From the IMG/VR virus record IMGVR_UViG_3300042298_000781, positions 1 to 22,641 of that record: a stretch of 22,641 nt of DNA; one strand, 5' to 3'. The DNA comes from a virus. The position numbers were made by a program, and so were the translations under genes. Below, in pieces: positions 6,937 to 13,033 of this stretch (the first letter of the stretch is position 1; the number at the start of each line of letters is the position of its first letter). The notes beneath the pieces are model-generated. The model made no database searches. It worked only from the letters and a program-made list of their open reading frames with translations, and was not told the origin of the DNA.

Positions 6937-7044
6937 TTCTGGAGAATTCAATGGCCGCTTACTACAACGAGATTGATCCCTACGCCGCCCAGTGGCTGCG
7001 TAACCTGATCGCCGCGGGGCACATTGCGCCGGGCGACGTGGACG

Positions 7045-7051
7045 AAAGGAG
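7045..7051 (+). promoter_or_regulatory. Shine-Dalgarno for the +1-frame ORF inside the methyltransferase gene
   Basis: AAAGGAG lies 8 nt before the ATG at 7,060, optimal strength and spacing, in the middle of the methyltransferase gene. It decides the likely start of the overlapping +1-frame ORF. In the methyltransferase frame the same bases encode part of DERSI. Confidence 0.6.
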
Positions 7052-7059
7052 CATCAACG

Positions 7060-8013
7060 ATGTCAAAGCCGACGACCTTAAAAACTACACCCAGTGCCAC
7101 TTCTTCGCCGGCATCGGGGTCTAGTCTTATGCCCTCCGACTCGCAGGCTGGCCCGACGACCGGCCTGTGTGGACTGGAAGCTGCCCCTGCCAGCCATTCA
7201 GCGCAGCAGGAAAGCAGCAAGGAACCGCAGACGACCGGCACCTCTGGCCAGTCTGGTCAGAACTTATCCGCCAGCGAAAGCCTGCGGTTGTCTTTGGTGA
7301 ACAGGTTGAAGCAGCAATCCGCCACGGCTGGCTCGACCTTGTTCAAGCTGACCTGGAAGGAATCGACTACGCCTTCGCAGCGGCCGGTATCCCTGCTGCG
7401 GGCTTCGGTGCGCCGCACATCCGACAGCGATTGTGGTTCGTGGCTGAGTCCAACCAGTTGCAGTCCGAACAGTTTGCGCGGTCAGGGGCAAGACCCGGAG
7501 TTGCGGAAGGCGCAGGGTCATGCGGTGAACCTGCAAGATCAGGTACGCCTCGCCGGCTGGGTAACAACAACAACAACAACAAGGGACTGGAAGGACACTG
7601 CGGCGGACATCAAGCCGAGGGAGGATGGGACGGAGCGGTTCGATCAGCTGCCGCGGCAGGCGAATCTGGCGGGGTGGCAGACTCCGAAAGCGATGGACGG
7701 GGTGTTCTCGACACCACGAACGTCGGATCGTCCGATGCACCGAGCAACGCATCTGCAAACGCAGACGATGGCGCAACTGTCCGACAAGAGCGACCTCCCG
7801 GCCAACGGGCCGGCCCGACTAACGGCCACTGGCGAAATGCTGATTGGCTCCACTGCCGGGATGGAAAGTGGCGGCCAGTTGAACCCGGCACATTCCCGCT
7901 GGCTCATGGGGCTGCCAGCCGAGTGGGACGCCTGCGCGCCTACGGCAACGCGATCGTCCCGCAGGTCGCCGCAGAAGTCATCTCAGCCTACATGCTTGGC
8001 TGATCTCCTGTGA
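7060..8013 (+). CDS. Overlapping +1-frame protein inside the methyltransferase gene, 317 aa
   Basis: This ORF lies almost wholly within the cytosine methyltransferase gene in the +1 frame. Possible starts are GTG 7,024, ATG 7,060 (preferred, strong Shine-Dalgarno) and ATG 7,129 (5 nt after the methyltransferase TAG, suited to re-initiation). Its TGA overlaps the GTG of the polymerase gene by 4 nt, as at nearly every real junction here. Recognisable segments are [71 protein letters not shown], and [19 protein letters not shown] followed by [12 protein letters not shown] recall very similar proteins, often labelled as cytosine-methyltransferase-like, in other phages. No catalytic motif is visible, so function is unknown; a partner or specificity factor of the methyltransferase is a guess. 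Confidence 0.65.
7563..7580 (+). repeat. (AAC)6 trinucleotide repeat
   Basis: Six perfect AAC units. They encode six Asn in the methyltransferase frame and Thr in the +1 frame. Slippage in units of three would change both proteins' length while keeping both frames open. Confidence 0.9.
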
Positions 8014-11832: not shown

Positions 11833-12074
11833 TGCCGTTATACGATTTGTTCTGCCCCACCTGCCACCGCACGGTCGAACGCCAGTGCAAGATTGACGAC
11901 CGGTTAAGCCAACGCTGCTACCACGATGGCGATGTGTTGACCGTAAAGGTGGCACCTGTCTACGGCAAGATGGCGGGCACGGTGCTGAAAGGTGGCGGAC
12001 CTGATCGGTTCACCGCGGACGTGCTCGGTGTGCGGCTGGACGAACTGCCTAGCGGATTGCGGACAACCAAATGA
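11832..12074 (+). CDS. FmdB-like zinc-ribbon protein, 80 aa
   Basis: The start MPLYDLFCPTCHRTVERQCKIDD matches the small FmdB-type zinc ribbon (MPxYDYxCxxCG). The first knuckle is intact (C8, C11), but the expected second CxxC is reduced to CYHDG, so zinc binding may use one Cys plus His or Asp, or may be lost. The C-terminal half (GGGPDRFTADVLGVRLDEL) is not part of the ribbon. The start shares TAATG with the primase gene. Function unknown; a small nucleic-acid or polymerase accessory is possible. Confidence 0.65.
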   Translation: MPLYDLFCPTCHRTVERQCKIDDRLSQRCYHDGDVLTVKVAPVYGKMAGTVLKGGGPDRFTADVLGVRLDELPSGLRTTK

Positions 12075-12511
12075 GTTTCACCGACGGCAACAAAGCGGAC
12101 GGCAAGCACTACTGGCTTACGCCACCGGAATTGATGGACCGGTTGCAGTTAGAGTTCGACTTCAACTACGACCCCTGCCCTTTCCCTAAGCCCGAGGACT
12201 ACGACGGACTGGACGCTGAGTGGGGGTCGCGCAGTTACGTCAACCCGCCATTCGGCGTCGTCATGCATAAAGGCAAAAAGAAAGGCGCCACTGCTTGGGC
12301 GCGGAAGTGCATCGAAGAACACCGCAAGGGCAAGACCGTGGTGATGGTCTATCCGATTGACAAGTGGGTGTTGATGCTGCTGGACGCCGGCGCCAAGGTG
12401 CGCAACCTAAAGGACGTGAAGTGGTGCGCCACTGAGGACGGGACGCCCGGCAAAGGCACCGGACGGCATGTTGCTATGTTCGTGCTAGAGGCCGAACAGC
12501 CGCCCAAATAA
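12071..12511 (+). CDS. Dam-like phage N6-adenine DNA methyltransferase
   Basis: The 146-residue protein has the layout of the phage Dam family: YWLTPPELMDRL, FDFNYDPCPFP, DGLDAEWG, SYVNPPFG (motif IV, N58-P-P-F61, the (D/N)PP(Y/F) catalytic loop), then GKTVVMVYPIDKWV and a late GRHVAMFVLEA. Such enzymes methylate the N6 of adenine in short sites using SAM and can protect phage DNA from host nucleases. This is a short form with motif IV ahead of the other conserved parts. It is the last plus-strand gene, and its final 38 bp overlap the end of a minus-strand gene. Confidence 0.85.
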   Translation: MSFTDGNKADGKHYWLTPPELMDRLQLEFDFNYDPCPFPKPEDYDGLDAEWGSRSYVNPPFGVVMHKGKKKGATAWARKCIEEHRKGKTVVMVYPIDKWVLMLLDAGAKVRNLKDVKWCATEDGTPGKGTGRHVAMFVLEAEQPPK

Positions 12512-12635: not shown

Positions 12636-13033
12636 TTGCTAACGCCCTTCGACTTCTCCACAGAGCGCAGGGTGCCGAGGCCCAGCATACCGGTCACAAC
12701 GACCCACAGGAGGTCGATGTTGACATCCGGCGGCGCTGGCCAGCCCTTGGCCGCACCAACCCACACCAGCACTGGTTGGACAATCGTAGCGTAAACAAAG
12801 CCTGCGCCGCCCGCCCAGCCAAAGAACGGCCGCCAGCCGGCAACGAATACGGAAGCGTGCTGCGCCTCGCGCGCATTGATCTCCAACTGACCCATGATCT
12901 GTTTCAGATCACCATCCTGGGTCATCTTCATCAGTTCCAGTTCGGCCGCTGCCTTCTGCGCAGGATCCGGGAAGATGCGGTCGATGATGCCTTTGCCCAA
13001 TTCAAACAGCGGGCCGAGCAGTAACGGGTTCAT
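12632..13033 (-). CDS. 3-TM holin (Holin_3TMs / GTA-type)
   Basis: A 133-residue protein beginning MNPLLLGPLFELGKGIIDRIFPDP, then a charged helical segment AELELMKMTQDGDLKQIMGQ and AREAQHASVFVAGWRPFFGW. Hydrophobic helices follow near 70-92 (GGAGFVYATIVQPVLVWVG) and 104-122 (IDLLWVVVTGMLGLGTL), with a basic tail. This is the pattern of the three-TM holins named after gene transfer agents, which permeabilise the inner membrane and release the endolysin. Its start overlaps the endolysin stop by 4 nt, which fits a lysis cassette. Confidence 0.8.
   Translation of the reverse strand: MNPLLLGPLFELGKGIIDRIFPDPAQKAAAELELMKMTQDGDLKQIMGQLEINAREAQHASVFVAGWRPFFGWAGGAGFVYATIVQPVLVWVGAAKGWPAPPDVNIDLLWVVVTGMLGLGTLRSVEKSKGVSK

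Follow-up and report, generated by a model that had tools for sequence, protein, structure and literature searches.

The locus described here raises the question of what a single in-frame stop codon means in a viral gene for a cytosine methyltransferase (MTase) that otherwise looks whole. The stretch of DNA analysed, referred to throughout as the window, is the 22,641-base virus record IMGVR_UViG_3300042298_000781, and the frame in question (6951–8003) contains exactly one in-frame stop, a TAG at 7122–7124 directly 3′ of motif I (FFAGIGV). A first-pass annotation had offered two outcomes for this codon, namely loss of the enzyme if it is a true stop or, if it is read through, a stop acting as a switch on methylation.

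The interrupted catalytic frame

The interrupted frame, termed frame A, encodes the catalytic chain (α), and its elements are as follows.

6941–6944, plus strand: Shine–Dalgarno-like GGAG of frame A, seen in the sequence six bases before the ATG at 6951
6951–8003, plus strand: frame A (α), C5-cytosine MTase catalytic protein with motifs I–VIII and X and a TAG at codon 58
7101–7121, plus strand: motif I (FFAGIGV), frame A
7122–7124, plus strand: TAG at an invariant Trp codon, from comparison with homologues and sister sequences
7176–7202, plus strand: motif IV (GSCPCQPFS) with the catalytic Pro-Cys, frame A
7293–7307, plus strand: motif VI (FGEQV), frame A
7416–7433, plus strand: motif VIII (HIRQRL), frame A
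7926–7982, plus strand: motif X, frame A

C5-MTase signal is present on both sides of the TAG: residues 1–57 match phrog_363 (E 8e-26), and the DNA from 7125 to 8000 matches phrog_363 (E 8e-57) and Pfam DNA_methylase (E 3e-16), which bears out the earlier description of an otherwise intact cytosine MTase interrupted once after motif I. The PF00145 catalytic domain, with motifs I, IV (PC), VI and VIII, is recognized by this Pfam match, by the α profile, which matches M.HhaI across residues 71–170, and by the fold of an intact homologue, the model of the α chain from a sister sequence matching that of M.HhaI with E 4e-8. In this model residues 1–178 and the last helix are ordered, and residues 198–259 are disordered. 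No target-recognition domain (TRD) was found between motifs VIII and IX within the α chain, where frame A is unconstrained and predicted to be disordered, and in the window phage the frame itself is not continuous, codon 58 being the TAG.

The identical TAG occurs in three further IMG/VR contigs (L002, L003 and L084), all of which are 100% identical to the window over 1,063 bp. Across 22.7 kb the 43,945-base contig of L002 matches the window at 99.96–99.99%, in permuted order and with about six differences, all outside the shared 1,063 bp, so that nearly the same phage was assembled separately in the two records. At 12836–12926 of the window the two matches to this 43.9-kb contig overlap by 91 bases and join its ends; the contig probably represents a near-complete genome that is circular or terminally redundant. 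The sister contigs L004 and L086 (92% identical) carry TGG at the position of the TAG, and alignment of the homologues places TGG (Trp) at codon 58 in 119 of the 119 other distinct sequences, in agreement with the single G-to-A change of a Trp codon that had been proposed. Over α codons 37–166 the window differs from its sister at nine third and two second codon positions, the TAG being one of the latter; because these codons show no other decay, the stop is taken to be recent. The TAG is best read as a recent nonsense mutation removing the catalytic protein, and the loss foreseen for a true stop is the most likely fate of that protein.

Two other readings of the codon were weighed. The TGG of the sister sequences would be compatible with a sequencing or assembly error, but four contigs taken from different IMG data sets agree on the base, and two of the four are shown to differ at other sites; an error of this kind is hardly credible. 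Read-through of the TAG by a suppressor tRNA or through weak termination, switching methylation, is very unlikely. It would fit the otherwise undamaged state of α, with its small number of second-position differences, but the recency of the mutation accounts equally well for the missing decay. A scan for tRNA genes found none in the window or in the near-identical 43.9-kb contig, and comparison of TAG use across genes revealed a minor but ordinary stop, which ends four of the 46 crude ORFs of that contig; neither mark of a TAG-recoded phage, a suppressor tRNA or the avoidance of TAG as a terminator, is present, and the earlier judgement that genome-wide reassignment is unlikely holds. In E. 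coli, termination at TAGT, the tetranucleotide present at the site, is strong. Among the relatives, α is broken by TAA, TGA and frameshifts as well, with no bias towards TAG: the single lesions found in eight of them are TAG in L140, TGA in L187, L217, L253 and L327, TAA in L093 and L116, and a frameshift in phage PMG1. Broken frames were counted on core regions, where most of the remaining 'breaks' of frame B (see below) are its normal end; L134 and L225 were rejected from the count, as they are not real breaks in frame A. The types of lesion form a pattern of ordinary loss and not that of a decoded amber codon, and they leave the proposed methylation switch unsupported.

The gene ending in TAG at 12,474 that had been cited against reassignment does not exist: the ORF at this place, 12071–12511, terminates with TAA, and the closest TAG (12486) lies out of frame. 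This ORF, on the plus strand, gives a weak match to phage N6-adenine methyltransferase (Dam) that falls below the Pfam cut-off.

A second frame conserved across the same gene

The first-pass annotation missed a second conserved protein, which is encoded in the +1 frame across the same DNA and is intact despite the TAG.

7045–7051, plus strand: Shine–Dalgarno sequence AAAGGAG of frame B, inside frame A, eight bases before the ATG at 7060
7060–8013, plus strand: frame B (β), +1 to frame A, proposed target-recognition subunit of 317 amino acids, with ATG at 7060 and TGA at 8011–8013

The stop of β lies 10 bases past that of α. Frame B matches phrog_1008 (E 2e-28) and phrog_31772 (E 1e-31), phrog_363 being the family matched by frame A, and searches with either frame lead to the same phage loci. 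Judged from one sequence, frame B could be a chance ORF in GC-rich DNA, open only through the constraint on frame A: synonymous shuffling of this one gene of the window often leaves +1 open (273 of 350 codons expected, p = 0.13). Across 120 distinct loci, however, the mean longest +1 open run is 317 codons, compared with 172 after synonymous shuffling, and the +2 control gives 68 codons compared with 79. Since this set had been found partly via frame B, a second test used 80 bacterial loci collected via frame A only; frame B was open in +1 and matching in all 78 of the 78 loci with a full-length frame A, and the longest +1 run averaged 314 codons, where synonymous shuffles gave 163 (66 and 77, respectively, in the +2 control).

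The count of stop codons across the family is equally uneven. In 178 sequences frame B contains 23 stops where 585 are expected, 25-fold below expectation: eight (301 expected) lie in the part from the frame B start up to motif VIII, and the other 15 (283 expected) in the part that runs from there to near the end. Upstream of the frame B start, by contrast, 334 are found where 256 are expected, and the +2 frame shows an excess over expectation; these sequences are related, so that the counts are not independent, and the non-redundant subset comprises 81 sequences with pairwise identities below 80%.

Frame B is also preceded by a start signal of its own. A Shine–Dalgarno sequence of at least four bases together with a start codon in frame B is present in 92 of 120 homologues, compared with 37.7 in synonymous shuffles and with 27 for the +2 frame, and the commonest start site, used by 51 sequences, is the ATG equivalent to that at 7060. 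Where α codons overlap this signal, AGG accounts for 33 of 118 Arg codons (24 of 891 elsewhere) and GAT for 80 of 112 Asp codons (311 of 970 elsewhere). A start of frame B at the ATG at 7129, just after the TAG, was rejected, this ATG being absent from close relatives, L005 and L087 among them.

In a +1 overlap the base read third in a frame A codon is read second in frame B, and the base read first in frame A is read third in frame B; the ratio of substitutions at these two frame A positions (A3/A1) was followed along the gene in 94 independent pairs of related genes. It amounts to 3.6–5.2 across most of codons 1–75 (2.5 at codons 31–45), about 1.2 at codons 121–150, 0.11–0.50 at 166–285, 1.5 at 286–300, 0.34 at 301–315 and 2.6 at motif X. 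Read in this way, constraint lies on frame A alone at the N-terminus, on both frames around codons 106–150, on frame B alone between motifs VIII and X, on frame B at an 11-residue segment, and on frame A again at motif X. The rapid evolution of the third codon position of frame B between motifs VIII and X, which is the fastest there, the enrichment of its Shine–Dalgarno sequence and ATG and the family-wide deficit of stops all stand against a chance frame, and the family-wide sequence data refute that reading, which retains next to no probability. As for the TAG itself, the base change replaces Gly by Ser in frame B, within an N-terminal stretch without constraint, and the glycine at this site is imposed by the α Trp codon.

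As far as sequence comparison can tell, the nested MTase locus is widespread in phages and prophages of Proteobacteria. Both frames are annotated in the record of phage fKuEco01 (KE1_032/033). In Pseudomonas phage PMG1 (L163) a frameshift close to the beginning of frame A divides it, and the record annotates frame B alone, as 'DNA methyltransferase, Mte8-like'; in Salmonella phage SAP012 (L165, 1801–2596) both frames are open and neither is annotated, which leaves a gap of about 800 bases in the record. No paper on the second frame in these phages was found in the literature, of which few subscription papers were reachable, so that this absence proves little.

Frame B as the probable target-recognition half

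Three segments of frame B bear on its identity.

7270–7410, plus strand: helix and beta hairpin of frame B (β residues 71–117), the confidently modelled part (pLDDT about 77–92)
7438–7710, plus strand: W-x-T-P-x-x-x-D repeats of frame B (W128, W167 and W206), matching the single-frame TRD
7870–7941, plus strand: segment of frame B matching the single-frame motif IX region LxPAFPEWMMGWPAGW

In the single-frame mycobacteriophage enzymes Moonbeam gp69 and ShiLan gp70, motif VIII is followed, all in one frame, by LLPTPSAADG...RLHPAFPEWMMGWPAGW...IGNGVVPQQ. The frame B profile was aligned by hhalign to the region after motif VIII of single-frame mycobacteriophage MTases with a probability of 85% (E 5.8e-6), against at most 0.2% for ten column-shuffled controls and one reversed control; the variable region of α gave 0%, and the motif X of α matched the single-frame motif X with 38%. 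Because of these profile alignments, the TRD and motif IX part is assigned to frame B and the catalytic part with motif X to frame A. Motifs I–VIII and X are found in α and the motif IX region in β, motif IX being identified by alignment to the single-frame relatives. Frame B appears, from these comparisons, to be the target-recognition half of the enzyme, left intact by the TAG. The structure models agree with this assignment; in that of β the first residues are disordered and confidence is low outside residues 71–117. No PDB match to frame B was obtained by sequence search or by Foldseek with the β model, nor did frame B match Pfam, an HNH domain included, or have a family in NCBIfam.

Within the recognition region, at 7563–7581, window and sister phage differ by two units (6 bp) in the length of an AAC trinucleotide run, which is read as Asn by frame A and as Thr by frame B and leaves both of them open. 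At 7679–7812, again in the recognition region of frame B, differences from the sister are dense and confined to this segment, with nearly identical flanks, as if a recognition module had been exchanged.

Among far more distant C5-MTases, those of Microbacterium phage R1 (L169) and Paenibacillus phage Lily (L173) contain, as judged by eye, an LPTP...MGFP-type segment in +1, and an internal gene is annotated there in the Lily record. The split may thus predate the proteobacterial phage family or have arisen outside it. In Gordonia phage Getalong (L168, 1609–2699) the C5-MTase is split into the consecutive genes gp85 and gp86, which is another way of separating the last motifs.

A proposed nested two-subunit enzyme

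The locus is most plausibly a nested two-subunit C5-cytosine MTase of which α is broken and β intact in the window phage, a reading to which we assign a probability of roughly 0.78. The α chain would bind S-adenosylmethionine and carry the catalytic cysteine, with motifs I–VIII and X. Translation of the β chain would begin independently on the same mRNA, in +1, at the ATG at 7060 and with a Shine–Dalgarno sequence of its own; β would supply the target-recognition and motif IX region absent from α, and the two chains would assemble into one enzyme. In the lineage of the window phage, a recent G-to-A change would have turned the invariant α Trp codon into TAG and ended α after 57 residues; with an α chain lacking motifs IV–X, methylation by the locus should be lost. 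The β chain is still open and could be made, with the catalytic partner from the same gene missing. Frame B is likewise open in about nine homologues that have a stop or frameshift in frame A, and in these β could act on its own.

The change of the constrained frame along the gene, and the A–B–A order in which the corresponding parts follow one another in the single-frame relatives, might also be expected of a single protein made by programmed frameshifting, running from the catalytic part in frame A to target recognition in frame B and back to motif X in frame A. Such a protein is improbable: two opposite shifts would be needed, and it would have no need of a frame B that is open and constrained upstream of motif VIII, as the deficit of stops there indicates, or that has its own Shine–Dalgarno sequence and ATG; frame A, moreover, is open throughout the variable region. 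It is quite improbable, too, that frame B encodes a phage protein in its own right, whose function has nothing to do with the methyltransferase. The homologues in which it stays open beside a broken frame A would agree with such a role, yet none of the loci examined has frame B in the absence of frame A, frame B matches the target-recognition part of single-frame enzymes, and the part missing from frame A is exactly this one. The nested two-subunit enzyme is the reading retained in what follows.

Comparison with known systems

The small chain of M.EcoHK31I was reportedly described by Lee and co-workers in 1995 as nested in an alternative frame of the large chain, with both chains needed for activity; a second frame nested inside the α gene is what is found here. 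As in M.EcoHK31I, α holds motifs I–VIII and X and β the motif IX region, a likeness drawn from descriptions of that enzyme. M.EcoHK31I (YGGCCR) consists of two polypeptides, of which the larger carries motifs I–VIII and X and the smaller motif IX (PMC3404938). The predicted TRD resides in its larger chain (PMC3404938), whereas in the window locus sequence comparison places it in β. Unlike the small chain of M.EcoHK31I, β is about as long as α, with its 317 amino acids, and spans nearly the whole gene; the window locus is, in addition, phage-borne, without a known nuclease partner, and its α is broken in the lineage. M.AquI is a naturally split C5-MTase with motifs I–VIII on one chain and motif IX on the other (PMC3404938); its split runs through the variable region, and its small chain holds motif X together with motif IX. 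In the window locus, by contrast, β lies inside α in another frame.

The single-frame actinophage C5-MTases Moonbeam gp69 and ShiLan gp70 have the same catalytic part and the same TRD and motif IX module as the window locus, but all in one frame, whereas the TRD module of the window locus is in +1. ShiLan also provides an example of an out-of-frame protein inside a phage methylase gene, a hidden HNH endonuclease (PMC11855218); that case is an inserted homing endonuclease, whereas frame B has no HNH or other Pfam match. The families phrog_363 (frame A) and phrog_1008 (frame B) are both labelled DNA methyltransferase and listed as separate protein families; in the window locus they are two frames of one gene.

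Implications

The locus probably belongs to a large and for the most part overlooked family of cytosine MTases in phages and prophages, the catalytic and DNA-recognition halves of which are encoded in two frames that overlap over about 1 kb. It is unusual for DNA phages and bacteria to have overlapping genes this long that are maintained in hundreds of divergent loci of phages and prophages, and here one can trace along the gene which frame is under selection. Where one frame is constrained the other is free, which would let recognition modules change in frame B, where frame A is only filler.

If β is the recognition subunit, many proteins annotated separately as 'DNA methyltransferase' or as hypothetical would be the two halves of one enzyme, the proteins concerned being those of phrog_363 and phrog_1008, the Mte8-like protein, N15 gp58 and the epsilon15 cytosine methylase, and studies of expression or specificity in which one recoded frame is cloned would miss half of the enzyme. 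The TAG in the window phage is an ordinary loss, yet a useful natural mutant of one enzyme half, and the locus provides a testable case of a single-frame enzyme becoming split over two frames.
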